Assembly: GCA_015501605.1 (NCBI GenBank)
Contig: JADNRZ010000041.1
Coordinates: forward strand, 124,001-188,000
DNA: 64,000 nucleotides
Source of the DNA: Panaeolus papilionaceus
Lineage: Eukaryota; Basidiomycota; Agaricomycetes; Agaricales
Direction of reading: 5' to 3'
Position 1 is the first letter of the stretch. The number at the start of each line of letters is the position of its first letter. The notes under the pieces were generated by a model, which saw nothing but the letters and a program-made list of their open reading frames with translations, had not been told where the DNA came from and ran no database searches. The translations under genes were made by a program, and so were the position numbers. Positions 13,503 to 52,931 of the stretch are shown piece by piece.

Positions 13503-15147
13503 ATGGATGGCCTCGATGCAGGACCGACGAAGTTCCTCGACCCGACATATGGAGCGTTGCTAATCGGAAGTGAGTAATCCTACGAAGGCACCACATTCAG
13601 ACCAACCTAACTGTCTGATTGCGCTTCAGCGATGCTTGCCATCCTCTTCGAAGGAACCCTGATCGTTCAAGCATACAACTATTATGAGAACTTTCCGTAT
13701 GATAAGCTGCGCACAAAGATCACTGTCTGTATCCTTCCTGTCGAAGTGGAGAACTACTTACTTAGACGCCGCTTTGGGATTAGGTGGGACTGGTATGGTG
13801 AGTTAATATCCTCAAGGTCATCGGCGATGTTCTCGACTGACGACATGATGGCACAGCGTAATAGACACCGTTCATACCATCCTAATATGCAAAGCGATGT
13901 ATGAACTACTCATTACAGACTGGGGATTCATCGGGAGCTTGGACACGGTGCCCATTGAGCTCGGTATCCACCTTCTACTCACTGCATGTTCATGTATCGC
14001 CGTCCAGAGTTACTTCCTAGAACGGTGAGTCATTGACCCCCTTGAGTGCCAGATTTGGACTCAGTCTTATGTTACTACGACCCTCAACCCACTGTAGGAT
14101 TTGGCTGTTCAGTCACAAGAACATCCTGATCGTGTTACCTCTAGTGCTACTTGCGATTGTCCCCGTCGTTCTCGAGCTTCACCTTGGAGTGCTGAGATCT
14201 ATTAATCGTGCTGTAGCTCAATACGCCCAGAACAAGCCAGAGGCGATTACAATTTTCGTTTCCGGAGCATTGTGTGCGTAGCATATTCATTACCTCAGAG
14301 TGCTTGTCACTGAGACCCTTCCATTACCCTATAGCCGATATGCTCATTGCTCTCGTAACTTGCTATTATCTTCGCAGAAACAGCACTTCATTCCCTAAGT
14401 AAGCTCTTCCTACCTACATACCATCACCATAGTTCACTCACAGACTATCGGCTGAAAGGACCCAGAGTGTCATTTCCAGGGCCATACAGCTAGTCATTGG
14501 CAGTGGATTAGCAACCGGGTAAGGAGGCTGCGGAGAGGGGCTCCCTATGGCAATTAAAATAATGCTAACACGATGATTTGATACTTTTAGGTTTATTGCG
14601 ATAGGATCGGCCATTGCGGTATGTCAACACCTTGAATCATAAACCTGTCAGGGATTGACATTCGGCGTTCGTTAAAACTAGTTCTTCGTCCGCCCAAACG
14701 CATTACATTTTGTGGTGAGCGTGTACACCATCATGTTCATATTAATATACTAACCAATCGACGCTCTAGGCCGTTCATTTACAGCTCGGAAGAACGTATA
14801 CGAATGCATTGCTCGCCACGTGAGCTTCCTCCATATTTAACTGAACTGTCTTTGGGATCAACTAACCCATGCCCGCCGAAAACGACAGTCTGAACGCTAG
14901 AAAAGATATGCGTGATATGCTGTCAGAGTCTCACAAGTCCAGAAATGCTACTCACAGGAGTACTCTGCGGGCTGTTGGACGAGTCGAGACCCAGAAGGGC
15001 GCTCTGGGCGACAACACAAATATTGTGTGCATGGTGTCGACGTCTCAGTACAGTGATTCAGACCGTGCCTATAATCAGGAAAAGGGGGAGGCGTTTTCGA
15101 GCAGTGAGATTCGAATGGAGGAGAAGGGTCCCCATCTTGAGGTGTAA
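13503..15147 (+). CDS. DUF6534-type multi-pass membrane protein
   Basis: The ATG at 13503 opens exon 1, which ends ALLIG and splices into TMLAILFEGTLIVQAYNYY, a hallmark-like start for DUF6534 proteins. Later exons add further hydrophobic segments: VIDTVHTILICKAMYELL, the GIHLLLTACSCIAVQSYFLE region, a segment around ILIVLPLVLLAIVPVVLE, ADMLIALVTCYYLRRN and LATGFIAIGSAIAFFV. Together these suggest about seven membrane spans. The final exon reads LQLGRTYTNALLATLNAR, the usual C-terminal signature, then a polar cytosolic tail ending at 15147. Introns are about 50-60 nt. The family is greatly expanded in Agaricomycetes and is GPCR-like in topology; its function is unknown. A second member lies at 29057-32610. 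Confidence 0.85.
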
Positions 15148-15872
15148 AACGACAGGGACATAATCGGAGAACTTAAACGCTTCACTCGCTACCGTGTTGG
15201 TCACTAAGCTCGTGCCATTAAATTATTTTGAAAATATTTATTCCTCCTTAAATCTTGAGCATGGTCGTTTATTGAGTGAAGTGGACGCCGTCATAGCATC
15301 AGCGAAAACCATGGTGGCATGTCTACCAGGTCTGCATAAAAAAAGCCGCGTCTGAGTTCTAAACAGCGTTGACAAGACCTCACCGAAAACCCCTGCAAAT
15401 TATGCCCTTTGTCATTCTCCTCCTGGTTCGCCTTGGGGTATTTGTCACTAGTCACTTGGGGGGCTGGGGAAAGCGATGAAAGGCTCCAAATTACCGCAGG
15501 TACAGAACCCTCTTCAGGGGAGGTTCAACCCCACTCGACAAGGGTGCAGCTTTCGCTGGGGATGATGATGAAAAGCTCCAAATCGCCGAAGGTAGGTAAC
15601 CTTCTCGAGAGGAGGTTCAACCCCATTCGACGGGGGTGCAGATTTCAACAAATAAACGCCAGTACGATGTGGAATATTCCATCTAAAAAGAAGGGTGATG
15701 ACCCCACACCCCTAAAACCCTCTTCTCATTACCTCCTCTGTAGTGGGGTTTATCTCCCATGCACAACTGGGAGGGGTTATAAACCCCCGAGTTGGGCTTA
15801 CAGTGCGTCGAAGTCGCATCGTGCTCTGAAATTGAACGTGAATGGAATCAACATAATGGGCCCAAACTAATC
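15148..15872. other. intergenic region flanking the inverted repeat
   Basis: No supported gene. It contains the ~90-bp tandem repeat listed separately and ends where similarity to the right arm of the inverted repeat begins, near 15873. Confidence 0.5.
15478..15642 (+). repeat. two-copy imperfect tandem repeat, unit about 90 bp
   Basis: Two adjacent segments share GAAA(G/A)GCTCCAAAT at one end and GAGGTTCAACCCCA at the other, and both finish GGGTGCAG. They differ at scattered positions. The word GGTTCAACCCC resembles a Pol III B-box by chance, but no tRNA cloverleaf can be folded around it. Confidence 0.65.
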
Positions 15873-16607
15873 CTTCTTCTCTCTTACGAACTCGTAACGT
15901 GCGTCACCTGCGTGATTTTTTTGTTGATTATCTCAGGGAACCGCACGACTAGAAAAAATAGCATGATGCTGGCTGGGTGGTCGGGTTTATCAGGAGCGCC
16001 ATAGCGGCTCAGCACATGCGATAAACGTAAAAGCAAAATAACGGTGTTAGACATGGCGGGTCATACCATCAGCGAATCATTGATACATTGGAAGAGAGAG
16101 AGTACACAGGTAGAGATTGCAGAGCGTCGAAGAAACACGCGAAAATCTACATAGCTGATGCCATCATTTCGTTACAACTGACGAAGAAATTGAATGGGGT
16201 GTTCTGGACAAGACTCGGAGGGAAAACATGGCATCAATTTGGCGACAACGGATGGAGAAATGAAAGAAGGATACTCTGGCACTCGATTGATGAATAACTA
16301 TTCCAATCACAATCACCACTACTGAGATTCGAAACATTGTTCGATGCCATGAATTACGTGTCTGATGCCGTGTTTGCGTTACATCGACTCCGTATGAAAG
16401 GTACCGTAAGTATTGGTGCTATCGTAAAATAACAATGACTGATGGGAGGACGAAATTCGAATGTTGTACAAGATGGGCGAACGACACGCGAAACGGGGAA
16501 CTTAACTGATCCCTCGAACAGTATAGAAAATTATTTGAATTGCGACGGAATATAAATTACAAAAATAATATACGTGACCATCGCCGAACGTCGCAAGTAC
16601 CAGCTGC

Positions 16608-17582
16608 TTAAGCAATCATAGCGATTGTTTGTTTCTGATAAATGAACCGTTCATCAACAATCTGGCCAGAGCATCCAAAAGAAACAAATGGCAACTCACA
16701 ATTTCCTGATCCGTCTTGGATGCAGCGCATGTCTTGAGGTTATCCGCAATACCCCAGTCAACCAGTTCAACAGTGATAGTTTCGATCGAGGTTCCTTGGA
16801 TCAAAAAGTTTTCCTCTTTCATATCGCTGATCAGAGCAGTCAGTGTCGTTCATCTACCATAAACAGCACAGTAAAAAGTCGCTTACGTGTGGAGAAGCTC
16901 GAAGTCATTCTTATAATGCATGACGCGCTCAAACAGTTTCGTGTGGATTGCAGCGAGGACTTTCTTTTTCGTCTCCCCAGTGGCACCGGTGTAGAGCGGG
17001 AATTCGCTCAGATGTTTCCCATGGATTCGAGTCATCTTGATATAGAAAGAACCGCCGGCTTCGGCCCATCCCTTGAGTTGACCAATGTGCTGCAATCGCT
17101 CGACCTCGGGCTCGACGATATACCGAAGCGCCGCCCCTGGCTTCTTGATGACGACCTCGTTCGGGTTAGTCGCGCACTCGTATACGTCGCCGAAGGCGCC
17201 CCCACCGAGCCTGGGTCCGAGCGCAGGTGCAACTTTCTCCAGCGCAGGCAAAGCTATAGCGAAGGGCAAGGCATTAGTTCATATCAGCGATGGAGGAGCC
17301 TCGGGATTACGAACTTCGACGCGACAACCGCTTCGCTCCGTTAGTTTTCTTAACAGTGCAGACGGGGCCTGCCTTCAAAACTTTGGGGGTGCGTTTCGCC
17401 AACATGCGACCATAGACTGAAACATCTTCGATATCTCTGCTGTCTACGAGGGTGCTGAGCGAATCCCATGATCTTCGAACAGCTTCGAGTGAACCCGTAC
17501 GGGCGTCCAGCTCGACTGGAGCGGCGTTACAGATGGTCAGCACAACGCTGATGGAAGCGAGGAGAGCGTAAGAGAAGCGCAT
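16608..17582 (-). CDS. small secreted protein kinase-like protein, left-arm copy
   Basis: Four exons (reading leftward from the ATG at 17582) give 262 codons, all junctions GT-AG and in phase. It mirrors the right-arm copy at 25282-26256 exactly in every part compared. The protein starts with a signal peptide (MRFSYALLASISVVLTICNA), then a ~70-residue spacer with basic pairs, then a kinase N-lobe: glycine loop LGGGAFGDVYE, a lysine in VVIKK and a glutamate in EPEVERL. A catalytic-loop-like HTDMKEENFLI and a DWG in place of DFG follow. It ends about 20 residues after DWG, so most of the C-lobe is missing. An ER or extracellular kinase or pseudokinase is inferred. It lies downstream of CCT3 on the same strand. 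Confidence 0.72.
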
Positions 17583-17687
17583 CGTCGGTGAGCTGAATGG
17601 GTTTCAAGGTAGAGTGTGCTGCGTAAAGAGATGAGTGAATAGGACGGGACCAGCCTGTCTGAGGAATGTACTATCATTGCAGCCTCG

Positions 17688-17695
17688 TATTTATA
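17688..17695 (-). promoter_or_regulatory. TATA box of the left-arm kinase-like gene
   Basis: TATAAATA on the minus strand lies about 105 bp upstream of the ATG at 17582. It is the mirror image of the box at 25169-25176. Confidence 0.6.
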
Positions 17696-18818
17696 CCCCT
17701 CGTGCCATGTCAGAAAACCTGAAAAGAAAAGACATTGAGTTTCCCAAGGTCGTCTTCACCGCACTTTCGAGCTCACCGTTCACGCCACAGATTTGTATAA
17801 TCAGGTTCGTCTTCGGCACATTGTCACTTCCATTCTCTCTACAACTCTATTCAAATCAGCCACTACCTCAGGGCCATCGATAAAGTCCATCAAAACATAA
17901 CATTATGAATGCAGGTGACACTATCAAAACGTCCAGTTGACATCCACCAGCAACTTTCTGACTTGCGGGTTTGGACTAGACCACACGCTCAAACTGGAGA
18001 CGCAAAACATCACATTCACAAAAGCGCCATCTGGCAGTGTTGATAAGCAGGGTCGCGTCGTATAGCCATACTGTCTCTCTACCCAACACCACCATGAGCG
18101 CATCGTAGCCGCCGTGCCTGCCCGCTCGTATCCAGCGACATTCAATTGCAGTTGACTGTTGAAACTGGCACATCCGCGCGGCGCTATGTTACAGGGGCCA
18201 GACGGTGGGCGCATCAATAGTTTAATTCATGCACCCCTCGCGAATTGAATTGACCCAACAGCATTTACCCATCAGATATCAAACACCATTCATTCAAATC
18301 GTCAGAAGCTCACTGTTATACAAGTACACAATTACGTAGTATCCAGTGTCGGGACCAACTGAATTATATATGTTAGCATACCGGTGCATTGATACAGGGA
18401 CATTACCATCTGTCATGGAGGTTTCGATATGCCGTGTCTGGTATGGGCTATGCAATGAGGTTGCAACTTCAAGACGACTACACGCATATCTGAGTACATC
18501 GTACGGTGCTGCATTCTTTGAATAATACTTTTTTGTATCGTGACCTCAGCTCGAAACGGGAGATAGAAAGGGGAGATATTGATAACACTTGACATTTTCC
18601 TCACGCAACCAGAATTCAAAAGACGAATGAATAATTCAAAAGAGAACTAACAAACTACCAAAACTCGCGACAACAAGTATTTTTAGTTTTCCCCCTCCCC
18701 TTCCCGTCCTTTCCCGCCCACCCTGATTTCTTCCCCTCCCTTCCTGCCCACACTGACTTCTCCCCCTTCTCCTCACAACCCGCCCCGATTTTCTTCACCC
18801 ATCCCACTTCGCCTACGC
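17696..18818. other. intergenic part of the left arm (mirror of 24046-25168)
   Basis: It separates the CCT3 stop from the kinase-like gene and has no supported gene. The short open frames at 17924-18217 and 18413-18619 recur exactly in the right arm because the DNA is copied, not because selection can be shown. A C/T-rich stretch lies at 18690-18810, just past the CCT3 stop. Confidence 0.55.
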
Positions 18819-21644
18819 TCAGTTCTCAGGCACCATCTCCTCCGGCATCGGCTGCCCACCTCCCTCCTTCTCTTTACGAATAGCCTGGACAACATCGTCG
18901 ACGCGAAGAAGCATGCGCGCGGCTTCGATGGCGGTTTTGAGCGTTTGGATCTGCGGTGATGTGAAAAGGGATGTTAGTAGGGGGTTGAATGGGGGACGAA
19001 GAGGAAACACATAGCACAGGTCATCAACGTATCAGAATATAAAAGTCATTAGAAATGAAAAGTCCATGCCATATTAAAGACTCAGAGAAGAGAGAGCCAG
19101 CGAGTTGAGCGATACACACCCAACGACGAACGCGCTACCCATGATCAGGCAAATAACGTCAGGGAAACAAAAACCGCGACCATGCGACTATGCATACGCC
19201 CGCGTCATCACAGAGAAAACCAATGCATCTGGGCGATGGAAGTATGTCTCCCGAAATCGACCGCGTAAGGAGCGCGTGCACGGCTTGTACCGATGAAATA
19301 GCTTCGCGAGGCGGAAATATACACCCAAAACAATGCAAAGAGTTGTAGAGTGCCCATGGGCGCTTCTAATTCAAAAGCTCGCAGAGTCACTGAAACCCTG
19401 CATATGCTTCTCAACAGGATGAAAAAAGAGGTAGAGCGTCTGTACAGACGACCAAAGTGCCAAAACGGGAACCACACCAAAGACGAAAAGAGCAAGGATA
19501 GAAAAGACGAAAAAAAATGCAAGCAAAGACTCGAAAAACCGAGGCGTGGGCAGAAAGACAGAGAAAAGGACAAGGAAGAGGAACAACGCTCACCTTGACA
19601 CTCGCAGACTCATACAATCCATAGGTCTTCATGTCAACAGGTTTACCTGTATTTCCATCTACACCCCACGAGCTCTCTCCAGACGCATGCTTAGCCTACG
19701 CATCGAACAACTCCATCAACCACCGACCCAAACAACTTAGGAAAGGAAAGCAAAAACGTACCCTCAGCTCAGTTAACACCCTGATCGCATTCCCACCCGC
19801 ATTCTGCACCAGCGTGCGCGGAATAACCTCCATCGCATCAGCAACAGCTCTATACGGCCACCCCTCAACACCAACCACGCTCCTCGCCTTCTGATGCAGC
19901 CCCACACTGATCGCCATCTCTGTCGCGCCTCCACCGGGTGCAAGAGTAGGGTCAAAGACGACGTTACGCGCGACAGACATGGCGTCGGCGAGGTTCCTGT
20001 CGATTTCGTTGAGGATGTCTTTGGAGGGGCCGCGGAGGAGGATGGTGCATGCTTTGGGAGTGCTACACTCGGTGAGGAAGGTGAAGTATCTGGAGGGGGA
20101 GAAAAGGTGAGATGGGTGAAGCAGATGGAAAAGAGACCCGGAGAAGGTTGAAAAACGTACTCATCACCGATTTTTTCGATGTGGAACAGGCCACACTTCG
20201 TTCCAACATCAGCATCACGGAGATCTTCAATACGGTTGACGATAGTAGCGCCAACGGCGAGTGCGATACGATTGTTGTCCGATTTGCGAACACGACGAAT
20301 AGCAGAGACGTTATTGGTCTCAAAGACATGTTGAGCGAGATCTATTCATTCACAATCACAATGAGTAACCCAACGACGCTGCAACCAACGGCAACGACAA
20401 AACTCACCAGAAACACCCTTCTCCGTAATAATTAAATCCGGCTTAAACTCCAACAGCCTATAACACAACTGCTTAACCTGCTCTTCTTCAATCTCCTGAG
20501 CCCTCGCCCAATCCGCCTCCTTCGAAAACTCCATATTCGTCTGACTCTCCCCCTTCTTATACTCCAATGGACAATCCAACAATATAATCCTCGGGTTCTC
20601 AATCCTCCTCCTCATATTCGGATGCGTAATATCCTTATTCACCATCACTCCATTCAGCACCTTGCTCTGCTCAATCTCGCCCCCAGGGATCTTCTCCACC
20701 CTCGCATAGCGCTTTATATCCACCGTTTTGAGACCATTATTCTCCTGAGCCACCGTGCGCACGGCTTGGAGTGCGAGCTGACACATGAGATCAGACCAAC
20801 GCGCGACGAACTTTGTGCCGATGGAGGTTTTGATGAGTGCGAGCATTTGAGCGTCGTCGTTGACGTCGATGGGGATGGAGATTCGTTTGATGATGGAGAG
20901 AGCTTCTTGCAGGGCTTTGTTGTATGCTGAAATGATCACGACGGGGTGGATGTCTCTTTCGAGTTGAGAGAGGGATTGTGCGAGAATTTCGCCGGCTGAA
21001 AGAGGTGAAAAAACGAGGAAAAGATCAGTGTCAGTAGGACAAGATATGTGTACAAAGACGAACCCAGGATAATCACACTCGTCGTTCCGTCTCCACACTC
21101 CTCATCCTGTGTCCTGCTTAGCTCGATCATATTCTTCGCCGCAGGATGCGCGACGTCGATCTCACGTAAAATCGCATTGCCATCGTTTGTTAGCCTATCA
21201 TGTCATAGCATAGCACATCAGTAGAAAAAACGCGCAGTTCGGTGAGTGTTGTGTCATAAAGGATGAGAAAAAGCGAGAAAGAGGAGGAGAAACGTACAAT
21301 ATGCCGCCCATAGGATCCAAAATCATCTTCAACATCGCCTTGGGCCCAAGACACGTCCTGATAACATCTGCTACAGTCTGTCCACCATATCCAAAGTCTC
21401 GTCAGCATGTCTCATCCAACACTATAGCTTAAGCTTGAAAATCAGCAACGCACCTTGGCAGCAGTAATATTAGACACCTGCGCTTTCCTCCCCGACGTCC
21501 TCTCGGGGGCAGTGTCTGTAATACACCATACACCACACACACACAACACAAGATCACCCAATGAAACCATCAGCATCTCCCCCTTCCTCCAGAGAAAAAG
21601 CGGAATAATAACGTACTCATCACAAATACGGGCGTTTGGGACAT
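18819..21644 (-). CDS. CCT3: T-complex protein 1 subunit gamma (CCT3 chaperonin)
   Basis: The ATG at 21644 reads MSQTPVFVMNTAPERTSGRK, followed by exons with IRTCLGPKAM, MILDPMGG and DGNAILREIDVAHPAAK. The group II chaperonin nucleotide-binding motif (ECGDGTTSVIILG) is present, as are gamma-type signatures such as NPRIILLDCPLEYKKGESQT and LLRGPSKDILNEIDRNL, and APGGGATEMAISV. The penultimate exon ends YGLYESASVK at 19594. The last exon (18819-18950) reads IQTLKTAIEAARMLLRVDDV and ends PEEMVPEN. The product is one of eight subunits of the cytosolic CCT/TRiC ring that folds actin and tubulin, so the gene is expected to be essential. The last intron (18951-19593, 643 nt) is about ten times longer than its neighbours, and the inner edge of the inverted repeat lies inside it. 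Confidence 0.95.
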
Positions 21645-21964
21645 GGTGGATATGTCGATGGATGAGGAAAATGGGAGAGGAGTGGATGGATTAGAGGTGA
21701 GTTGATCAAAACACGATTCCCTTTTTTTGACTGATGGCCCAGGGCACGACGCGTTTGTGTTACGGCTGGTCACGGTTGTTAGTATTGGTCAGCGTCGTCA
21801 CGCCGGGCTTCGTTGAATGAGAACTCTGCCGAAGCGCTGACATCCAAAATATTCTAACTCTTAACACAGGGATGAAACCACCTCGTGTGTACCACGCACC
21901 ATTATGTCGCAGACATGTCAACACATCCTGAGCATATTCGGCCGCAACCTCACCTCGTTCCACG

Positions 21965-22695
21965 ATGAACGTCCCCGAGCTTAGTAACCTCAAGGTCAAT
22001 GGCGAAATTTCCGTCGAAACTGTGGCTAGCAAACTGCGCATTCGTGTGTGCGTAAGTATCTCGGCGCTCATTGCTTAGTATTGAATGTCACGACGCTGAC
22101 CCCTTGGTAGAATACTGGGACCCACAGGTGTCGGGAAAAGCTGTGTAAGGAAGGCATCATCACTTTCTGAGATGGTCTCCTAAAACTCGCCATCATTTCG
22201 TATAAAGTTTATACAAGTGCTAGCCGGAGATGTGCAGGATTTGGGATTATCAAAGGACCAACTAGCTGGATTCACACAACACGCTTCGGCATGCAAGCTG
22301 ATTAACGTATGGATTCACCGCGACGGAAGACTAAAACCAATTTTTCTGATCGACACGCCTGGGTTTTCAGACCCCAGAATTTCATACCTGGGTGTCGTGC
22401 GTGCCTGGGGTCATTCGTCGGCTCAAACCAACCTCGAGCTTGGCAAGGGACTTCTCGAGAGGAACCATGCAGAGAACGAGAATTGACCAAGTTTGTGGAA
22501 GAGTGGATTGGGGAGTTCAGAACACCGCCAGCGGGACTCGAGGATGGTCATTACGACCTCCTGAAGTCGCTAGGGGGTACTTATATTCCGCACAACCTGT
22601 CGATGCGTGTCTTCCTTCTCCCGTGTTTTCTCGCTCGATGGTTTCGCAATGCTAAGCGTCTGAGACGAAGCAGGTGGTTCGAGCGCAAGTCTTAG
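21965..22695 (+). pseudogene. degenerate P-loop GTPase-like gene, internally deleted
   Basis: The ATG at 21965 starts MNVPELSNLKVNGEISVETV, which aligns with the region before the P-loop in the GTPase-like gene at 59-1730. After an intron comes the G1 motif ILGPTGVGKS. After another intron comes QVLAGDVQDLGLSKDQLAGF and the G3 motif FLIDTPGFSD. The frame then jumps almost directly to sequence matching the C-terminal helices of the first gene (ELTKFVEEWIGEFRTPPAG against RLDKFIEQFIEYGPPPAQ). The region from switch II through G4/G5 is therefore missing. One base is also missing near 22481, which breaks the frame. The gene lies head-to-head with CCT3, with about 320 bp between the starts. Confidence 0.65.
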
Positions 22696-23562
22696 GCAAC
22701 TTACACATTAGTACATGCATTGTATTTATTTCGACGCCGCTGCGCCTGTTGATATCTCATAGAGTCCTGAGCTGCAATCGTTTAGCCCTTTAAGAAGTTG
22801 ATGTCACGTCAAGAGCTACTCTGCATCTGCATCTCCGTTCCCCTTGCACATCGCATCGTGTAGTACTCGTTCAGCTTGTACAGCTCACCCAGCACAACGT
22901 TTCTGTATAAGACTGAGAATCATGGGAGGAATGAATTGCGAGAAGCAGCAGAATGGGGGAACAAGGACTTTTTGATCCCCATTTAGCCATTGTCGAGGGC
23001 CTTTTCTCCATCGTTTTGTCATGGGTAACAGAGCAGTGATCCTTGGGTGAAGGAGGACAGGTGGCGGGGAGACAATGAAAGACGGCACAAAATCAAATAT
23101 AAGGAGGTTACACCCAAGCCCCATGACCAATATAATCTAGGGCTTCTCCTTGCAACCAGTTACAATCTCCCTCAGCATTCTCCACGTGGAAGAATGGGAA
23201 GAGGATCTATGAGGAGGGTTAGGGTTAGATAGTCGAGTCAGGAGGTAGACATAGGTTGGTAGGTGGATACAAGGTATGTGAGAGTAGATGGTAGGGTCCC
23301 AGTAACGTCAGCATGTAGTTTCATATATAAATCTTTCTATGTTGTCTGAGTAGTGGAATGCTATTGACTCGCAGTTGCACCGCGTTAGGTGTGCTCCAAG
23401 TGTCAAATTGAAGGTAAAGAGGATTTGACTAGCGCCTCCAATGTCAATTTAAGAACTGCCAAACCTTTTTTTGCTGGCATTGATATGCATACATTGGGTT
23501 TTGTGACGATTCACTTGCCCTTGCGCGGAAACCCCCGCGCTCTACACATTTTATCATGGAAG
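22696..23562. other. gene-free part of the spacer with a short telomere-like motif
   Basis: No supported gene. At 23217-23229 the sequence reads GGGTTAGGGTTAG, two units of the fungal telomere repeat. The region ends where the right arm begins, near 23563. Confidence 0.5.
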
Positions 23563-23913
23563 TTATTTCATCGGTACAAGCCGTGTACGCGCTCCTCACG
23601 CGGTCGATTTCGGGAGACATACTTCCATCGCCCAGATGCATTGATGTTTTCTGTGATGATGCGGGCGTATGCATAGTCGCATGGCCGCGGTTTTTGTTTC
23701 CCTGACGTTATTTGCCTGATCATGGGTAGCGCGTTCGTCGTTGGGTGTGTATCGCTCAACTCGCTGGCTCTCTCTTCTCTGAGTCTTTAATATGGCATGG
23801 ACTTTTCATTTCTAATGACTTTTATATTCTGATACGTTGATGACCTGTGCTATGTGTTTCCTCTTCGTCCCCCATTCAACCCCCTACTAACATCCCTTTT
23901 CACATCACCGCAG

Positions 23914-24045
23914 ATCCAAACGCTCAAAACCGCCATCGAAGCCGCGCGCATGCTTCTTCGCGTCGACGATGTTGTCCAGGCTATTCGTAAAGAGAAGGAG
24001 GGAGGTGGGCAGCCGATGCCGGAGGAGATGGTGCCTGAGAACTGA
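23914..24045 (+). pseudogene. orphan last exon of CCT3 in the right arm
   Basis: An acceptor (cag at 23911-23913) precedes an exact copy of the terminal CCT3 exon, from IQTLKTAIEAARMLLRVDDV to the stop after PEEMVPEN. No upstream CCT3 exon exists on this strand in the present arrangement, so the exon is silent here. It would become the functional end of CCT3 if the spacer were inverted, because the acceptor, the reading phase and the intron sequence are all preserved. Confidence 0.85.
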
Positions 24046-25168
24046 GCGTAGGCGAAGTGGGATGGGTGAAGAAAATCGGGGCGGGTTGTGAGGAGAAGGG
24101 GGAGAAGTCAGTGTGGGCAGGAAGGGAGGGGAAGAAATCAGGGTGGGCGGGAAAGGACGGGAAGGGGAGGGGGAAAACTAAAAATACTTGTTGTCGCGAG
24201 TTTTGGTAGTTTGTTAGTTCTCTTTTGAATTATTCATTCGTCTTTTGAATTCTGGTTGCGTGAGGAAAATGTCAAGTGTTATCAATATCTCCCCTTTCTA
24301 TCTCCCGTTTCGAGCTGAGGTCACGATACAAAAAAGTATTATTCAAAGAATGCAGCACCGTACGATGTACTCAGATATGCGTGTAGTCGTCTTGAAGTTG
24401 CAACCTCATTGCATAGCCCATACCAGACACGGCATATCGAAACCTCCATGACAGATGGTAATGTCCCTGTATCAATGCACCGGTATGCTAACATATATAA
24501 TTCAGTTGGTCCCGACACTGGATACTACGTAATTGTGTACTTGTATAACAGTGAGCTTCTGACGATTTGAATGAATGGTGTTTGATATCTGATGGGTAAA
24601 TGCTGTTGGGTCAATTCAATTCGCGAGGGGTGCATGAATTAAACTATTGATGCGCCCACCGTCTGGCCCCTGTAACATAGCGCCGCGCGGATGTGCCAGT
24701 TTCAACAGTCAACTGCAATTGAATGTCGCTGGATACGAGCGGGCAGGCACGGCGGCTACGATGCGCTCATGGTGGTGTTGGGTAGAGAGACAGTATGGCT
24801 ATACGACGCGACCCTGCTTATCAACACTGCCAGATGGCGCTTTTGTGAATGTGATGTTTTGCGTCTCCAGTTTGAGCGTGTGGTCTAGTCCAAACCCGCA
24901 AGTCAGAAAGTTGCTGGTGGATGTCAACTGGACGTTTTGATAGTGTCACCTGCATTCATAATGTTATGTTTTGATGGACTTTATCGATGGCCCTGAGGTA
25001 GTGGCTGATTTGAATAGAGTTGTAGAGAGAATGGAAGTGACAATGTGCCGAAGACGAACCTGATTATACAAATCTGTGGCGTGAACGGTGAGCTCGAAAG
25101 TGCGGTGAAGACGACCTTGGGAAACTCAATGTCTTTTCTTTTCAGGTTTTCTGACATGGCACGAGGGG

Positions 25169-25176
25169 TATAAATA
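25169..25176 (+). promoter_or_regulatory. TATA box of the right-arm kinase-like gene
   Basis: TATAAATA lies 106 bp upstream of the ATG at 25282, within GGGGTATAAATACGAGG. The same box is present in mirror image in the left arm, so both copies carry the same core promoter. Confidence 0.6.
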
Positions 25177-25281
25177 CGAGGCTGCAATGATAGTACATTC
25201 CTCAGACAGGCTGGTCCCGTCCTATTCACTCATCTCTTTACGCAGCACACTCTACCTTGAAACCCATTCAGCTCACCGACG

Positions 25282-26256
25282 ATGCGCTTCTCTTACGCTC
25301 TCCTCGCTTCCATCAGCGTTGTGCTGACCATCTGTAACGCCGCTCCAGTCGAGCTGGACGCCCGTACGGGTTCACTCGAAGCTGTTCGAAGATCATGGGA
25401 TTCGCTCAGCACCCTCGTAGACAGCAGAGATATCGAAGATGTTTCAGTCTATGGTCGCATGTTGGCGAAACGCACCCCCAAAGTTTTGAAGGCAGGCCCC
25501 GTCTGCACTGTTAAGAAAACTAACGGAGCGAAGCGGTTGTCGCGTCGAAGTTCGTAATCCCGAGGCTCCTCCATCGCTGATATGAACTAATGCCTTGCCC
25601 TTCGCTATAGCTTTGCCTGCGCTGGAGAAAGTTGCACCTGCGCTCGGACCCAGGCTCGGTGGGGGCGCCTTCGGCGACGTATACGAGTGCGCGACTAACC
25701 CGAACGAGGTCGTCATCAAGAAGCCAGGGGCGGCGCTTCGGTATATCGTCGAGCCCGAGGTCGAGCGATTGCAGCACATTGGTCAACTCAAGGGATGGGC
25801 CGAAGCCGGCGGTTCTTTCTATATCAAGATGACTCGAATCCATGGGAAACATCTGAGCGAATTCCCGCTCTACACCGGTGCCACTGGGGAGACGAAAAAG
25901 AAAGTCCTCGCTGCAATCCACACGAAACTGTTTGAGCGCGTCATGCATTATAAGAATGACTTCGAGCTTCTCCACACGTAAGCGACTTTTTACTGTGCTG
26001 TTTATGGTAGATGAACGACACTGACTGCTCTGATCAGCGATATGAAAGAGGAAAACTTTTTGATCCAAGGAACCTCGATCGAAACTATCACTGTTGAACT
26101 GGTTGACTGGGGTATTGCGGATAACCTCAAGACATGCGCTGCATCCAAGACGGATCAGGAAATTGTGAGTTGCCATTTGTTTCTTTTGGATGCTCTGGCC
26201 AGATTGTTGATGAACGGTTCATTTATCAGAAACAAACAATCGCTATGATTGCTTAA
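25282..26256 (+). CDS. small secreted protein kinase-like protein, right-arm copy
   Basis: Exons 25282-25549, 25611-25977, 26038-26164 and 26230-26256 total 789 nt (262 codons plus stop). Residues 1-20 form a signal peptide. Residues ~21-89 hold basic sites (MLAKRT, RLSRR) that could be Kex2-like cleavage points. The kinase part has LGGGAFGDVYE (glycine loop), VVIKK (the usual ATP-anchoring lysine), EVERL (a candidate helix-C glutamate), HTDMKEENF (catalytic Asp, Lys and Asn positions kept) and VELVDWGIAD (DWG replacing DFG). It ends KQTIAMIA with no activation segment or full C-lobe. Activity is therefore uncertain; it could be a secreted pseudokinase or an effector-like protein. It lies about 1.2 kb beyond the orphan CCT3 exon. 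Confidence 0.75.
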
Positions 26257-26993
26257 GCAGCTGGTACTTGCGACGTTCGGCGATGGTCACGTATATTATT
26301 TTTGTAATTTATATTCCGTCGCAATTCAAATAATTTTCTATACTGTTCGAGGGATCAGTTAAGTTCCCCGTTTCGCGTGTCGTTCGCCCATCTTGTACAA
26401 CATTCGAATTTCGTCCTCCCATCAGTCATTGTTATTTTACGATAGCACCAATACTTACGGTACCTTTCATACGGAGTCGATGTAACGCAAACACGGCATC
26501 AGACACGTAATTCATGGCATCGAACAATGTTTCGAATCTCAGTAGTGGTGATTGTGATTGGAATAGTTATTCATCAATCGAGTGCCAGAGTATCCTTCTT
26601 TCATTTCTCCATCCGTTGTCGCCAAATTGATGCCATGTTTTTCCTCCGAGTCTTGTCCAGAACACCCCATTCAATTTCTTCGTCAGTTGTAACGAAATGA
26701 TGGCATCAGCTATGTAGATTTTCGCGTGTTTCTTCGACGCTCTGCAATCTCTACCTGTGTACTCTCTCTCTTCCAATGTATCAATGATTCGACTGATGGT
26801 ATGACCCGCCATGTCTAACACCGTTATTTTGCTTTTACGTTTATCGCATGTGCTGAGCCGCTATGGCGCTCCTGATAAACCCGACCACCCAGCCAGCGTC
26901 ATGCTATTTTTTCTAGTCGTGCGGTTCCCTGAGATAATCAACAAAAAATCATGCAGGTGACGCACGTTACGAGTTCGTAAGAGAGAGAAGAAG

Positions 26994-29056
26994 CGGGGGT
27001 GAGTTTGAGGTGAATCAAAACAAAGACGATGGATTCTGACGATTTCAACGAAATTAGCGCTTTAAACTATGTACATCACATACCTAATTTATAGAAAATG
27101 AATGGAACATAATGACAATGTCCAAAGACGAGGTATGTGTCATAAACTACGCTAATGCGAGATACAACGGCGCTACTTGCTAGTACGAATGGGGGGGAAA
27201 AGCGCACTTCGGCGTGCGCTGCGCGTGAACGCTGGACCGACGCGAATGGAAATAACAGGAATGGGAAAAGCCGCAAACAAGGGGATGTGGCTAATGGGCT
27301 CATCATCGGTTTCATTGGCGAGTCAAACTTGAGAGATAGATGAAGCTTTGCAATCGCTTTATATAGCTTCACGGACTCGGCGTGCCATGCATCGGCCTGC
27401 TAAAAAGGTCGATACAGCCTCTGGTCGACGCAACTGCAAGAAAGAGGTGAGAGCTAAAGTGGAAGAAGGGGAGTGGGTGATGTGAAGAGAAAGAGGGGGG
27501 GGAATGGGGTAGGGGTGAAAGGGTGTCAGATATGGCACCCTCACTCAGCGCGTTCAATAACGATATCTTCGTTACCCGCAAGAAAGAGCGAGTACTATAG
27601 AGTGATGTACTTTGTACCTTTGTTGCTCATAAGTAAGAGGACGAGCAACGAGGGTGGGGAATTTTAAACATATACTCGGAATCAAATGCTAATGAGTTTA
27701 GGTTAAGCGAGAGCATGTGGTTGGTGGTGACAAGTGCGCGTTGGCCGGCTTACATGGGGAATGGGACAATGACGATTGCCCACGGTGATGATAATCACGT
27801 CGAAAAGGAATCAAACGAGCAAGGGCTGGCAACTGACGGGGGGAAAGTCCAAGTAGGTGGGAAATAAGTAGGGCTGAACATGAGGGAGAGGAGGCCGTTA
27901 GAGTAGGTGATGGATATTTTGGTCGGGTGTATTGAGCAGAGGTCCAGCACAGGTGGAAGCACAGTGGTGCGAAGTCGGGATTTGATACTGTTCGACAGGA
28001 GAGTCAGTATGACCGTCTAGACTTGTAGAGCACTTTGTGCAGCGTCTCTGATGGTGGTTTTCATTATTTTATTTTGGGTTTCATGCGGTGTATGTGGCCG
28101 TCCCTGGCCTGGCGTTTGTTGTCGCTTTCGTTCACCCTGCCCTGTGGCTGTCGCTGTCGTTGTGAAGTGATCTCTAAGCGAAAGTATTCTTGTCTGAAAT
28201 AAAGTACGTTCCTTCAATCTCTTGAGTTTCCGAGCTGTGCAAAGAGTGGTGTGAATACACATCGTTGAACCCACTCCGTCTTCTGGTTGTGGGAACTGCT
28301 GCGCCCACTGAGTCTGGATTTTGGCTATGCCGTCAAGAGCGGGATTACTTCGGATCCAATTCATCTAATCTTATCTCCATGAACTCACGGCCGATGCCGC
28401 CTTCAATGCTCCCTGACACTTCTGGCTTCATTTACCACCAGCATGCTCTTTTCATTCAGCTAGACGAAGAAGAACAGTAACACATCACACCCCGTATACA
28501 CCTCCATGCATCGAGCAGGCATGTAACCTCTTCCATACCCTTGTCTTCCTTAAACCGAAAGTGCCTTCACCCCATCCGACTCGGCAGCCCACAAACCCTA
28601 GATCAACCCTTCAAATCAATCTCCCCGTAAGGATTAGCTCCAATTCAGTCCCCGTCCGTTAAGAATTGAGTTTATGTCACCCCTGCGCACCTTGGGTGGC
28701 ATGATGAGCTTCTTTCAATCTTACTAGCATGTTTCTTTCCTTTGGGCGCTGTCCGAAGCTTACCTACACTCTCTTAGTCCAGTTACACTTACATCCTTAC
28801 ATGCAAGCTTACAACATGAAATAAAATAAAATAAAATTCACATCTCGGGTCATCTCCGCCGGGTCAAGAGGTATACGTAGCACTGATGCCCTATGCACAG
28901 TTATAAATACGTATGAACTTGATTCCATAACCCCCTCCTTCGCTTTTTCATCCAGCCTACGTCCACGACGCTTTGTCCCTCCTTTCCTTTCCTTTCCTTC
29001 CCCTCACCTTCGTTTCTGTTTTCTATTACTAGGTATCGTGATAAGGAGGAATAAGG
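26994..29056. other. intergenic region, no supported gene
   Basis: About 2 kb with only short, non-homologous open frames. It contains a G-run near 27493, a short ATAAA tandem repeat near 28820-28840, and a CCTTT-rich tract at 28980-29005 just upstream of the next gene that probably belongs to its promoter. Confidence 0.5.
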
Positions 29057-36299: not shown

Positions 36300-37689
<1,390 letters not shown>

Positions 37690-38159
37690 AAGAGTGTAAT
37701 ACACATTCTCCTCTGGTATTGCATAGCTCTACTATATCAACTAAATTTCAAACATCTGTATTATTACCACAAAATAAATTTAACCTCTCTAACGTGTCGA
37801 AGCATCGTAGAGCCGATGATAAGTTGTCAATCTCTTAATTTCAGGGGTTTCTAGAAAGAAACAGGACACCAACGTTACGCGTGTGCCAAGACGCCACAAC
37901 GACGATAGCTGTCATGGCCTATTCAGATGGTGATGGATGCGCAGAATGGGCGTAGAATATATAAACACTATTCAATGCTTATCCGGAACTTGTTACTTCT
38001 TCTCTGATTCTGAGCATATCTTCAGAACTTCTCTAGCTTGCGCTATACAGTTTGCCATGTGCTTTCTGTATTCGCTGAATGGGAGCCAGAGGTATACATA
38101 ATGCTCATACTACGCTTTCGACGCTAGACCCCGGATTCAATACACCAACTGTACGAAAC
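37690..38159. other. intergenic spacer between proteases A and B
   Basis: No gene. ATATATAAAC at 37958-37967 is a possible TATA box about 195 bp upstream of gene B. Confidence 0.45.
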
Positions 38160-39610
38160 ATGTTTCCCATGAGCACAAAGACGCTTATAGTCGTAACTCT
38201 CTGCTTCGCATCCCAGGCCGTTCTGGCGGGCCTCGCTCCATACAGGCGTGGAGTTGAGCGTTATCACGGCGAAACTACAGGTCGACATATCATAACCCTG
38301 AGAGAAGGGGCTCCGCGCACCAACGTCCTCGCTCTCACCAAAGGAACCAACTCTCAAATAGTCACTGAACTGGACATCATCAATGGGTTCTCTGGTCACT
38401 TCGACGAGGACACTCTCACTCAGCTTCGCTCTCATCCGGATGTTACTCTCGTTGCTGAATGGTATCATGCATGCCATGACTAGAGTTATTCAGTAAGACT
38501 TCTAGAGCATCGATAACTCTTCGATGTGTCCCTTTGCTCAAGGTCTCTCACACCTTTCCTAGAACAGATGCGCCGTGGGGTATTACCCGACTCTCATCAA
38601 AAACTCGACTCTCAGGTCCAGAGACCGGTTTAAACTTTACATTCATTTACGATAGCTCTGCAGGTGGATGTGCAGACATCTATGTCGTTGACACTGGTAT
38701 CTATACCACCCATGCTCAGTTTGAGGGACGTGCTCGCTGGGGAGGCACCTTTGGTAATTATACCAGCGGTGACGGAAGCGGTCATGGAACCCATTGCGCG
38801 TGCGCACAGTAAAAGGCATATTCGATGGCGACGGAATTTACTGACAGGTTCTCTGTAATTTGAAACAGTGGCACAGCCGTTGGAAAGCAGTTCGGCGTCG
38901 CCAAGGCTGCCACTGTGTACGCCGTCAAAGTATTGAGCGACGCTGGCAGTGGAACTACTACTGATATGTGCGTTGTGTATCAAATTTATGGGGCATAATT
39001 TACCTGACTTACCTGTCACAGCATCAACGGTCTGAATTGGGTCATGAACAACGTTCGGGCTACGGGTCGGCCAGGAGTCGTCTCCATGTCATTAGGGGGC
39101 GGTGTTTCGACAGCCCTCGACAACGCTCTTACGAGCTTAACAAGCGCGGGGATTCATGTCGCAGTTGCTGGTGGCAACTCCAACGCCGACGCTGGCAACA
39201 CCTCTCCTGCGCGCGTTCCTTCTGCCATCACCGTCGGTGCCACCACATTCGCTGATGCCCGTCTCATGACTTCCAGCTATGGCAGCGTCCTCGATATCTG
39301 GGCTCCTGGCCAGAGCATTATGAGTGCATGGATAGGCTCCCCTACAGCGACGAATATATTATCCGGTAGCTCGATGGCAGCTCCACATGTCGCTGGGTTG
39401 ATTGCGTACCTTATTTGCCTTGAGGGTAATGTTACTCCTGCAGCGATGTCAACAAAGATAAAGAACTACGCTTTGAAGGACGTTATTTCAGGAATTCGTA
39501 ATTCACCCTATTCACCCTACTTTCATTCCCCACCCTACTTTAACTGACGGGAACATATTTCAGCATCTGGGACTGTCAACTATTTGGCACACATGCCAGA
39601 TTTGCCTTAG
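38160..39610 (+). pseudogene. subtilisin-like serine protease B, frameshifted
   Basis: It has the same exon pattern as gene A. The signal peptide follows ATG 38160 or 38169 (MSTKTLIVVTLCFASQAVLA), then the propeptide HIITLREGAPRTNVLALTKG. At 38459-38460 the sequence reads GTTGCTGAATGG, where A and C have GAAGATGG. Two bases are missing, and translation would stop within ten codons. Beyond this the gene is well kept: VVDTGI (Asp), GHGTHCA (His), AGGNSN and SGSSMAAPH (Ser), with good splice sites and the ending LAHMPDLP. The protein is lost unless the deletion is a sequence error. The good state of the rest suggests a recent event. Confidence 0.82.
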
Positions 39611-40236
39611 ATATCACTGAAATGCGAAGTATTTCCATGTGCATTAGGCATATCGTTATGAGCAACTTTAGCCTGTGATCACTTCTGCGCTGATAAGGAT
39701 CAGATATTCGGTCTTATATATACATGGAGTGTTGAATTGTCATTTAATACGGAGAGGATTTGCGTATCAACTAAATTCGATTCGGTGTGATAGTTGATAA
39801 AGAAAGGACGTCCTACTGAATCATGTTGGCGGCTCAATCTTCCATCTCACCCACTACCTCAAGCTCTCGTATCATTCAAGACTTTGGATGAGTGCGCTAA
39901 GTCTGGGTATTGAATGGCTCAAAGTCACTAAAAATATCCGGTATCAAATATTCGCCAAGTCAGTGAGCCCATATGGTGCGATAAAACAACTGTCAGGCTT
40001 CACTCATATCGCACATAGAAGCTGTTTATCTGAACACCGTTGAAATGTTGGAGCATACGTACCCGGAGCTTATGGTGATCCTTCGATGATCTTGGGGTTG
40101 TCTTCAGAACAACTCCATTCTGTCCCATAGAGTGTACCACACGGTTCATCTTTGTTTGCGATTTATTATATTACTAAACCAGGGATACATATAAGTGACT
40201 CTCGCACAGTTCCAACCTCAGACACTCCGCAAACCG
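39611..40236. other. intergenic spacer between proteases B and C
   Basis: No gene. ACATATAAGTG at 40187-40197 may be the TATA box of gene C, about 45 bp upstream of its ATG. Confidence 0.45.
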
Positions 40237-41694
40237 ATGAATTCCCTTATCAGAAAGCTCACAGCCCTAACTCTTTTCGTCGCCATTGTAAATGGAGCGC
40301 TTACCCCATTCAGGCGTGATGTCGAGCGCTATGCAGGCGAAACGACGGGTCGGCATATCATAACGCTGAGGAAAGGAGCTTCACACACTGATGTCCTAAG
40401 CCTCGCCAAAGGAAGTAACTCTCAAATCGTCGCCAAGTTGGATATCATCAACGGCTTCTCTGGTCACTTCGACGAGGCTACTCTCGCCAAGCTTCGTGCT
40501 CACCCAGATGTAACTCTCGTCGCCGAAGATGGAATCATGCACACTATGACCAAAGTGATCCAGTAAGACAGTCAGCTTGTCGTGTCGCCGTGATTGGAAG
40601 TCACCTTCTCTCGTCTCTGTTTTAGGACAGACGCACCGTGGGGTATTGCACGGCTGTCATCCAAGACTCGTCTATCAGGATCGGAGACTAGCCTCACGTT
40701 CACATTCATTTACGATAGCTCTGCAGGTGGATGTGCGGACATCTACATTGTGGATACTGGAATCAACACCAGCCATTCTGATTTTGCGGGACGCGCTCGC
40801 TGGGGTGCCACATTTGGTAGTTACCAAAATGCCGATGGTAATGGCCACGGAACTCATTGCGGGTAAGTTAACCTTGACTTTCAATGGGAATCGACCTAAA
40901 TTGATCACCACAACGTTCAAAACAGTGGCACGGCTGCTGGAGGGCGGTATGGTGTAGCCAAAAAGGCCACTCTGTACGCCGTCAAAGTCCTAAGTGATGC
41001 TGGAAGTGGTTCCACCACGGATATGGGCGTCGTTCGTGTGCTCACAAAACGTTAAATTCGTCTCTTACATTCAAGTTGACGTATATAACGTAGAATCAAT
41101 GGCCTCAATTGGGTCTTGAACAATGCTCGGCTTACAGGCCGTCCCAGTGTCGTATCAATGTCCCTCGGAGGAGGTATTGCTACCGCACTCGACAGTGCTA
41201 TTGCAACCCTTACCAACGCGGGTATCCATGTTGCAGTCGCTGCTGGTAACTCCAACACCGATGCTGCAAACACCTCCCCAGCACGCGCTCCTTCTGCGAT
41301 CACCGTGGGTGCGAGCACGTTTACTGATGCCCGTGCCTCATTCTCCAACTACGGAAGCGTTATCGACATCTTCGCTCCGGGACAGAACATCATCAGTGCG
41401 TGGACGGGCTCGACTACTGCAACGAATATTATATCCGGTACTTCAATGGCAACACCACATGTCGCTGGTCTTATCGCGTACCTCATCTGCCTTGAGGGCA
41501 ATGTTACACCTGCCGCAATGTCTACCAAGATCAAGTACTATGCTATTCAGGGCTCTCTTTCAGGAATTCGTAAGTCGGGGTTGAGTTCAGATGAAATGTC
41601 CCGCTTGGCTTTGTTGGTTTAATTAATCTGACGAAATTTGACTTTAGCGTCTGGAACAGTCAACTATATTGCACACATGCCGGATCTACCTTAA
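40237..41694 (+). CDS. subtilisin-like serine protease C, splice donor damaged
   Basis: The ATG at 40237 begins a signal peptide ([17 protein letters not shown]) and an I9 propeptide ending [13 protein letters not shown]. The catalytic domain has YIVDTGI (Asp), GHGTHCG (His), AAGNSN and SGTSMATPH (Ser), and it ends YIAHMPDLP. Introns 1, 2 and 4 are normal. At intron 3 the donor that reads gtaagt in A and gtgcgt in B is gggcgt here (41025-41030), a change of the invariant T to G. Retaining the intron adds a stop about 11 codons on (TAA at 41053-41055), before the Asn and Ser. A GC donor two bases on would break the frame. The gene is probably inactive unless a cryptic site rescues it. Confidence 0.8.
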
Positions 41695-50193: not shown

Positions 50194-50539
50194 AACTGCG
50201 GTCGCCCCTTAATGGAAGAGAAAGGGAGAAGAAAGAAACGCTCATATGCGTTGACGAATTTGCTTTTTATGGTCGTCGGGCCGCTTTTCGGGATAGATAG
50301 TACACGAAATTTTACCTTTGTTAGACTCCATTTACAATTGTACATCCCATTTACTGAAATTCCGAGAACTAATGTTTGGAAGCGAATATGCTAAAAACCC
50401 CCGATGAAAAAATGGATATTGACAACAATGATGAATGATGTTTAAGAGCCTATGATGAATTGATCAAGAATGATGGCAGACCGCAGCATTCTGAGTGTCA
50501 TGGTGCACACCAGCTCATTCGACATCTCACGCGTTTTAC
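50194..50539. other. spacer between FAD oxidase 2 and the tandem duplication
   Basis: About 350 bp without a gene. It should contain the promoter of FAD oxidase 2 on the minus strand. Confidence 0.45.
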
Positions 50540-52821
50540 CTTGAAGGAAAGCGAGACGGGAGCGAGGTCGTTTCTCAAATGTACACCATTTGTTGCACTT
50601 AGAACATATGAATTGTGCTTTAATCATGAAAAGAATATTACTTACTCCCTCCCGTCGCCCATAGACAATATCTTACCTTTATCTCCCCTACCAGTCGGGT
50701 TATCAAGCGTAATACCCGTTATCGCCTCCATCGTCGACGCTAGCACAACCTCGGCAGTCAACACATACTGGTTAGGACCGGGCTTTGGGGGGTCAGGCAA
50801 GTCCAACACCAGAGGTCCACACTTCCTACACCCCATCGCAACAGTGGCCACCACCCTCGGCTTCGAGCCAACATTTTTCTTCAGCACAGTAGGCCCGCTT
50901 TCGCGCTCCTGATATACAGCCTTCGCCCATTCAGTGTTATAGGCTCCGTTGAAGCTGGCAAGGGATAGAAAAACATCATGCGTCTGCATTCCTTGAAATA
51001 AAGCTTCATTGAGCGCGATGGTGGTTGGCTGTATCTGGTGTAGAAAGGGCTTGATAATTGTGGTAATTTGGAGTGTGGGGATGCTCCAGTTGGCGACGAG
51101 AAACACGGAGGAGAGGCGATCGAGGAAGTCTTTGGTAGGGTCGTATTTAGGGTCTCGGAAATAGTGTGAAGTCAGGACTCGCCATCGACGTGAGACGAGT
51201 ACGGATTCTGTTTTGAGATTTTAACCAATGACATAATGCCCTGTACCAAATGAGACGCTTACCAGTTTTCCGCATTCTGCTATACGTCCCCGACATCGCT
51301 TCGGATACCTTACCACTCTCACTAGGCCAATTTGCGATTTCAGGAGCAAAGAATTCAACCATGAACACTCTGAGTGTGATCTCGACGAGCGGTAAACAAA
51401 TTTTGCCCTTTTGGCTAGATTGTTTGACGAGGAGCTCAGTTAGAGGGTCCCCCATCACTCGAGATGCTTTTCGTTTTGCCTTCTCCGTTGTCTCGGGAGT
51501 AGTAGGGGTTCCAGAATGGTCGAGATAGATGTGGGGCGCGAGTGTCTGCGCGGTGTCAAACACAGCCTTGTTAAATGAACCCATGAGCCGCATAATCTCG
51601 TCGAAAGTGATTTTGTCTTTGAGTCCGTGCTCATCAGGATCTCTTGTGAATTGCATTGGCAGCAGGTACAAAACTTACCTGTAAGAGTCTCGGCGACAGG
51701 CTTAATGCTTGTACTAGCCTTGCTTGCGTCCTCCTTTTGCGACTTTTCGTTCTCTTTTTTGAGTTTCTTATTCGCAGCCTTCAATTGCCCAATCTCCTTC
51801 TTCAGCGCTTCATTCTCCATTTCCAGCTCTCTCAGCCTCATACCTCCCCCTATTTCGTCCCCTGGCATGCTCTCCAACTTCGCGATAACAGGAGAGGCAG
51901 CAACAGCAGCGGAACTCTCCGCATACAAGTCCATCAATTCCGCCTCTGTCGACTCTAGTCTTCCCTTGAGGTTATCCCTCTCGCTCTCTGTTTGCATTAG
52001 TCTAAACTTCACAGCTCGCAATTCCACCCGTAGTTTTGATAATACCATTGGCGAATCATCAGCTGGTGTAACCAAACCCGACGAAGATGACTGCGACAAA
52101 CGGGATGCTGTTGTTGACTCGTCGATTACAGATAAGAGAGATGATATCCTCATCTCTTTTTGGCCTATCTCGTCGTCTGACATGAGAGATGGACGTCGTG
52201 GTAGCCGGCGCGGTGACTTTGGTGGTGTGTCTTTGGGTTTTCCTGGCGATTTGGGTTGTGATTTAGGAGGTGAGGATGCAGTGATCTTGTGAGTCTCTTT
52301 GGGCGTTGTTGGTGGTGCAGGTTTAAGTTTAGATGACTTCTGAGCTGGTGATACCTCAACTTTGGATGTTGACATGATTGGGAAGAGCGGGACAATGAGC
52401 GGGAATGTTTTATGCCACAGGAGATATGAAGGGTGGAAGGGAAAGGATAATGCAGTGCACGACGCGGGATCAGGTGAATGAATAGAGGTCATGTCAAACG
52501 AGTCACTGCTGTTCCCATCCCCTCTTGATTGGACACTGCCCTCTATCGAATCGTTGTCCAGTGTGGACGAGCCGACGGCCCGTGCAGGGATATTTATATC
52601 AAGCAAGGATTAACGGTGTGATGGTATTTATAAGTAAATCAAGGTATACACCTAAAATAACCGGCATCTTCAAAGTCGTGTACTATCTATCCTACTATAA
52701 GGTAAGAGGTAGTTAAATGTCAAGCGAAGGGGTGGGTACGACGTGATTATCTGAATCGCGTGAGTCAAGCTATCACCTTGTTGAGAATATATAACCGATG
52801 TAGGGCAGCGGAGGGGATGGG
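50540..52821. repeat. tandem duplication, unit 1
   Basis: This unit matches 52932-55222 in order and orientation, including the coiled-coil gene and both flanks. The 3' flank shares GCGAGACGGGAGCG and AACATATGAATTGTGCTTTA. The 5' flank shares a CTTCAAAGTC stretch, GAGTCA(A/G)GCTATCACCT and GCAGCGGAGGGGATG. The flanks have diverged by many substitutions and small indels. Confidence 0.8.
50642..52375 (-). CDS. coiled-coil hypothetical protein, copy 1
   Basis: The ATG at 52375 starts a disordered, Pro/Ser/Lys-rich N-terminus (MSTSKVEVSPAQ, then PKSPGKPKDTPPKSPRR). A coiled coil follows at about residues 110-225 (ELRAVKFRLMQTESERDNL through ANKKLKKENEKSQKED). A conserved ~280-residue C-terminal part contains TFDEIMRLMGSFNKAVFDTA, LVEITLRVFMVEFFAPEIAN and WSIPTLQITTIIKPFLHQIQ. 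No family is recognised. Copy 2 reads straight through the region at about 51640. This copy carries two extra bases there, so it needs either a 38-nt intron (gtaagt to aag-ag) or it is frameshifted. A second intron (about 51215-51270) separates MRKT from ESVLVSRRW. Confidence 0.6.
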
Positions 52822-52931
52822 GTGGGGTGGGGGGCACCCCCACCGGATGGTCGCTATGGAAGGGATCGCTGGATCAGAAGCCTCTTGACTACAACCTCGA
52901 TGTCATGGTCTCATTGCATCACATGTTTTAT

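Follow-up and report, generated by a model that had tools for sequence, protein, structure and literature searches.

DNA segments that can flip between homogenised inverted repeats are already known from nuclear genomes. Here, we describe a candidate of this kind in Panaeolus papilionaceus, found in a 64,000-nucleotide stretch of contig JADNRZ010000041.1 (positions 124,001-188,000 of the forward strand; hereafter the window, whose positions are used throughout). Two near-identical inverted arms enclose a single-copy spacer, and the gene for CCT3 (T-complex protein 1 subunit gamma) starts in the spacer and ends in one of the arms. The closest known systems are the flip/flop region of Saccharomyces and the human inversions that carry identical exons in both repeats; to these the new example adds a single-copy essential gene lying across the hinge.

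The geometry is familiar from organelles. Plastid genes such as ycf1 cross an inverted-repeat boundary and are partly duplicated in the opposite repeat, and the gene is complete in either isomer. CCT3 likewise begins in single-copy DNA, ends within one inverted repeat, and is partly duplicated in the other. However, plastid isomers are abundant and belong to an organelle, whereas the locus described here is nuclear.

On chromosome XIV of Saccharomyces, homogenised 4.2-kb inverted repeats surround a 24-kb region of 15 genes (PMC9731477). Both orientations occur in at least four species and are explained by gene conversion with about 4% crossovers, and no flip was detected in about 53,800 mitoses and 950 meioses (PMC9731477). 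The Panaeolus locus resembles this region in being nuclear and fungal, in having kilobase-long, near-identical inverted repeats around a unique segment with whole genes inside the repeats, and in the probable homogenisation of the repeats within the genome. It differs in that both orientations have been observed in yeast and one orientation here, and in the length of the spacer (24 kb in yeast versus 4253 bp here). In addition, the sections of the yeast report drawn on here mention no gene straddling a repeat edge (PMC9731477), as CCT3 does.

In the human inversions HsInv0124, HsInv0344, and HsInv0393, the exons of the breakpoint genes are 100% identical in both inverted duplications, and for this reason the mRNA is expected to be unchanged on inversion (PMC3961182). 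The same logic applies to CCT3, although human orientation has been genotyped in people and is only predicted here. The FLNA-EMD inversion HsInv0389 also has inverted repeats, which flank genes that turn as a block; it differs in that these genes lie within the inverted segment and are not listed as spanning the breakpoint in the part of the source used here (PMC3961182). In the filamentous fungus Sclerotinia sclerotiorum, a 3.6-kb region of MAT between identical 250-bp inverted repeats is reported to be inverted in every meiotic generation (PMC3574095). The two fungal loci share a segment between identical inverted repeats and a repeat that lies inside a gene. In contrast to CCT3, which stays whole under a flip that is predicted only, MAT1-1-1 is truncated by the flip according to the portion of the report used (PMC3574095). 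No publication on the P. papilionaceus inverted repeat or on its inversion was found in the literature library searched.

The inverted repeat and the gene across its inner edge

Self-comparison of the window pairs a left arm at 15873-19305 (plus) with a right arm read from 26990 to 23559 (23559-26990, minus), and this is the sole inverted repeat of its size there. The arm-to-arm alignment is 3434 columns long and includes 11 mismatches and 3 gaps; as judged from this alignment, kilobases of identity between the arms are not a matter of chance. The spacer (19306-23558, strandless) is 4253 bp long and single-copy. A flip/flop nuclear region requires long inverted repeats, close to identical, on either side of single-copy DNA, and this locus has them. 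A sequencing palindrome, caused by a missing adapter, was considered and rejected because a single-copy spacer parts the arms and the four edges run into different DNA.

Searches of the species' own genome (50.85 Mb in 71 contigs), in which scores were given to the best candidates only, place full-length arm DNA at these two positions and nowhere else. The dispersed full-length copies expected of a mobile element are not seen, since full-length arms occur at this locus only, and no terminal repeat is visible at the arm edges. Arms that are a mobile element or part of a switch driven by a dedicated recombinase are scarcely credible; no support was found for either, in an analysis without a search aimed at recombinases. 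Separately, a segment of about 107 bp in each arm (18032-18138 and its right-arm partner) has 13 further matches among those listed genome-wide, of 48-119 bp and 77-91% identity, and is a small dispersed repeat.

CCT3 lies on the minus strand from 21644 to 18819. Its nine exons encode 543 residues in the sole open splice combination among those tried: exon 1 (21617-21644), exon 2 (21454-21515), exon 3 (21298-21377), exon 4 (21064-21194), exon 5 (20408-20995), exon 6 (20161-20341), exon 7 (19762-20089), exon 8 (19594-19695), and exon 9 (18819-18950), the last of which lies inside the left arm. The protein is identical over 543 residues to a public P. papilionaceus record, P0002. It scores 884.4 bits with the NCBIfam profile chap_CCT_gamma (cut-off 553.45), and residues 3-527 align to chain 5gw4_g, a T-complex protein 1 subunit gamma of solved structure. 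CCT3 is known to be essential from yeast. A search of the genome with the protein gives six matches at the locus, which correspond to one gene body and two last exons, and 11 further matches elsewhere at 25-49% identity; no second CCT3 body was found among the best candidates scored.

As the first-pass annotation of this DNA had claimed, both arms hold the final exon (18819-18950 and 23914-24045) together with the 3' flank, and the alignment confirms it. The right-arm copy is an orphan on the plus strand, with the exon at 23914-24042 followed by a stop codon that ends at 24045. The same annotation had put the inner arm edge at 19302 within the last intron of CCT3. The intron is right, and the edge itself moves to 19305 in the alignment, with the last mismatch at 19301. 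This intron (18951-19593, minus, phase 0) is 643 nt long, far longer than the other seven (101, 76, 103, 68, 66, 71, and 66 nt in order). It is split by the edge into 288 nt of spacer and 355 nt of arm, and the 228 nt on the exon side fall within the part of the arms that is identical. Structured RNA does not account for its length, as far as a search of 15000-28000 shows (no Rfam match to E = 1), and a tRNA search of 10000-36000 gave none. A dispersed repeat in the intron was not found either: its matches in the genome are the two places of this locus only.

CCT3 in the present and the predicted inverted orientation of the spacer

The spacer was inverted by script between 17500 and its partner 25364, that is, by a crossover in the identical core of the arms. 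This places CCT3 on the plus strand without any change to its coding sequence; the last intron is still 643 nt, and the last exon lands on 23914-24045. This agrees with the original proposal that recombination between the arms would turn CCT3 to the plus strand and connect it to the right-arm exon with the same intron length. The gene passes over the inner edge of the repeat, has the same terminal exon in each arm, and is still in frame after the flip. It follows from this geometry that a harmless flip of the spacer is possible.

The two isomers would differ solely between 19179 and 23685. Variants at the inner edges would turn with the spacer and stay with CCT3, whereas those at the outer edges would remain outside, and the spliced transcripts of the two isomers would be identical in sequence. 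The suggestion that RNA-seq reads with arm-edge variants would show which arm supplies the exon fails on this point. RNA-seq cannot separate the isomers because the exon and the adjoining 228 nt of intron belong to the core, where the arms do not differ, and because the variants of the inner edge (19179-19301) turn over along with CCT3. Orientation calls at such loci require reads longer than the identical core (2956 bp).

Two further consequences that had been attributed to the flip need revision. The 3' neighbourhood of CCT3, said to be swapped, is unchanged for about 2.9 kb and only the DNA beyond it changes, because the CCT3 3' flank and a kinase-like gene sit inside each arm. Beyond the arm, CCT3 would face a subtilase cluster (right) in place of an ISWI gene (left). 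The divergent promoter, also said to change position, turns over together with its gene, and the CCT3 start codon shifts only from 21644 to 21220.

Arm differences, probable homogenisation, and possible inversion

The differences between the arms are confined to their ends. All 14 lie within 350 bp of the outer edges (left-arm positions 15877, 15912, 15916, 15967, 16073, and 16222) or within 127 bp of the inner edges (19179, 19204, 19215, 19218, 19220, 19267, 19278, and 19301). Between them is a core of 2956 bp (16223-19178, plus; partner 23686-26641) with no difference, compared with 14 at the 478 edge positions. A difference-free run of this size has a probability of about 1.5e-11 if 14 differences fall uniformly; a Fisher exact test of core against edge gives p 9e-13, for a boundary picked after the data were seen. 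The upper 95% bound on core divergence is 0.1%, and 8 of 127 positions differ at the inner edge. According to the first-pass annotation, one spacer orientation in all nuclei and isolates, together with fixed differences in each arm, would indicate a static duplication. Such differences are present at the arm edges and absent from the core. Differences at the edges only argue for homogenisation by gene conversion and against a duplication left alone, unless core differences were erased by the assembly.

That last possibility supposes that true differences were averaged during assembly or polishing wherever reads were not anchored in single-copy DNA. It would fit the fact that all 14 differences are within 350 bp of single-copy DNA, approximately the insert of a short-read library. 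The genome paper names Illumina and PacBio data and Velvet, AllPathsLG, or Falcon as assemblers, and the part of it used here does not state which was applied to this species (PMC8480192). Its strain for P. papilionaceus is CIRM-BRFM 715 under accession JADNRZ000000000 (PMC8480192), which we take to be the same assembly. On the other side, the window is free of N, as are the 29 loci examined, several of which overlap it, and the 50.85 Mb fall into 71 contigs; absence of N and contiguity suggest long reads. In Saccharomyces, moreover, repeats of this type agreed between independent long-read assemblies, as far as the sections used report (PMC9731477). We regard an artefactual core as improbable.

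The reading that we favour, and hold to be somewhat probable, is that the arms are homogenised with occasional crossovers, and that both spacer orientations exist among strains, with CCT3 whole in each. An inverted duplication would have copied the 3' end of CCT3 (part of the last intron, the last exon, and the 3' flank) and the kinase-like gene across a segment that holds the rest of CCT3. Gene conversion since then would keep the cores identical, and edge differences would survive where conversion tracts seldom reach. A minority of conversion events would end as crossovers, each of which inverts the spacer. With CCT3 lying across the inner edge and its 3' end duplicated in the two arms, either orientation would leave a complete gene, and inversion should therefore be nearly neutral. 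We infer the gene conversion, the crossovers, and the presence of both orientations among strains of the species, and claim no biological role for the flip. By analogy with the Saccharomyces flip/flop case, both orientations would be expected among strains, and the rarer one would be rare within one mycelium.

Several observations weigh against this reading. One orientation, or haplotype, was found, with the genome searches giving two places only for full-length arms, and the identity of the core could in part be an assembly effect. The Saccharomyces region did not flip in the laboratory, and by this analogy frequent flipping within one mycelium is not expected. Comparison with P. cyanescens weighs neither way: neither flank gene was seen on the 26,679-bp contig that carries its partial CCT3.

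The same homogenised arms could also be non-flipping, with conversion that proceeds without crossovers or with inverted products that are lost, so that one orientation is fixed in the species. The single orientation in the assembly is as this predicts, and, according to the sections of the report used, the Saccharomyces region stays as it is over the duration of laboratory experiments (PMC9731477). However, a flip has no evident cost because CCT3 is intact after it, and in Saccharomyces, according to the same sections, conversion was accompanied by repeated inversion over evolutionary time (PMC9731477). A fixed orientation is unlikely, though to be taken seriously.

If the homogenised and invertible locus is real, it would be the equivalent in a mushroom of the flip/flop region of yeast, and a sharper one, in which an essential single-copy gene spans the boundary between arm and spacer and remains whole whichever way the spacer lies. 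It would offer a simple test of the rate at which long inverted repeats invert in mushroom nuclei, and of the idea that the two repeats are kept alike by a gene extending across a repeat edge. A stronger version, which we consider rather doubtful, is that the two orientations form a common polymorphism in Panaeolus that arises again and again, including between the two nuclei of a dikaryon. In this version, the arm that CCT3 faces would supply the last exon, and the need for an intact CCT3 protein would select on the arm in use and help to keep the arms identical; this role of selection is speculation.

Origin of the arms, neighbouring genes, and gene order in relatives

The kinase-like gene (Pkinase) is the next gene 3' of CCT3 and lies inside the arm, at 16608-17582 (minus) in the left copy and 25282-26256 (plus) in the right copy. 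Exon ends are uncertain in both, and the left coordinates are mirrored from the right copy; the match to PF00069 scores 35.6 bits against a cut-off of 31.7. The contig that contains the window also carries a paralogue with 39% identity over 106 residues, at contig positions 116819-117181 on the minus strand. This gene is oriented like the left copy and stands about 7 kb outside the window, to its left, at a distance of about 23 kb from the left arm. Its side and orientation are a weak hint that, of the two arms, the left one came first.

An inversion with staggered breaks leaves inverted duplications at both of its ends, as is known from Drosophila. The arms may have arisen as the by-product of one such past inversion, an explanation that concerns their origin only and leaves room for conversion and flipping afterwards. 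The inner edge sits in an unusually long intron (643 versus 66-103 nt), a possible junction scar, and no other full-length copy of an arm is present in the genome. In contrast, a simple inverted duplication of the left arm would also agree with the kinase paralogue on the left, and the P. cyanescens contig mentioned above, on which neither flank gene was seen, does not allow the gene order to be read. We consider an origin by staggered breaks possible but on the unlikely side.

Divergent from CCT3 in the spacer is a GTPase-like gene or fragment (21966-22700, plus; limits approximate, drawn by eye) with a weak match to Pfam MMR_HSR1 below the cut-off. Among 30 genome matches listed for its DNA (22092-22660), one is this locus and 27 are on two other contigs, C25 (23 matches, at about 137-438 kb) and C37 (4). 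All matches listed on these two contigs are on the minus strand, and some are pieces of one copy. These relatives form an expanded and probably tandem family of P-loop GTPases.

Outside the arms, the ISWI gene on the left ends near 10.66 kb of the window, and the subtilase cluster on the right consists of three tandem genes at about 36300-41620, with Pfam Peptidase_S8 in both of those tested. In P. cyanescens, CCT3 (CVT24_004619) is partial, without the residues of exon 1, on its contig of 26,679 bp, and ISWI (CVT24_005896) is apart from it on a contig of 8,478 bp; four subtilases of this species among the 120 matches listed are on contigs other than that of CCT3. Elsewhere, the linkage of CCT3 and ISWI varies, in examples that were read by eye rather than fully counted, irrespective of orientation, and with a shared contig inferred from equal size. 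The two genes are on equal-sized contigs in Crepidotus variabilis (113757), Phlegmacium glaucopus (368213), and Leucocoprinus birnbaumii (72150), and on differing contigs in Agrocybe pediades, Galerina marginata, and Hebeloma cylindrosporum. In Crepidotus variabilis, two subtilase relatives are also on a contig of the same size as its CCT3/ISWI contig. Further to the right, the window contains two direct copies of about 2 kb that are 83% identical (50527-52530 and 52919-54923).

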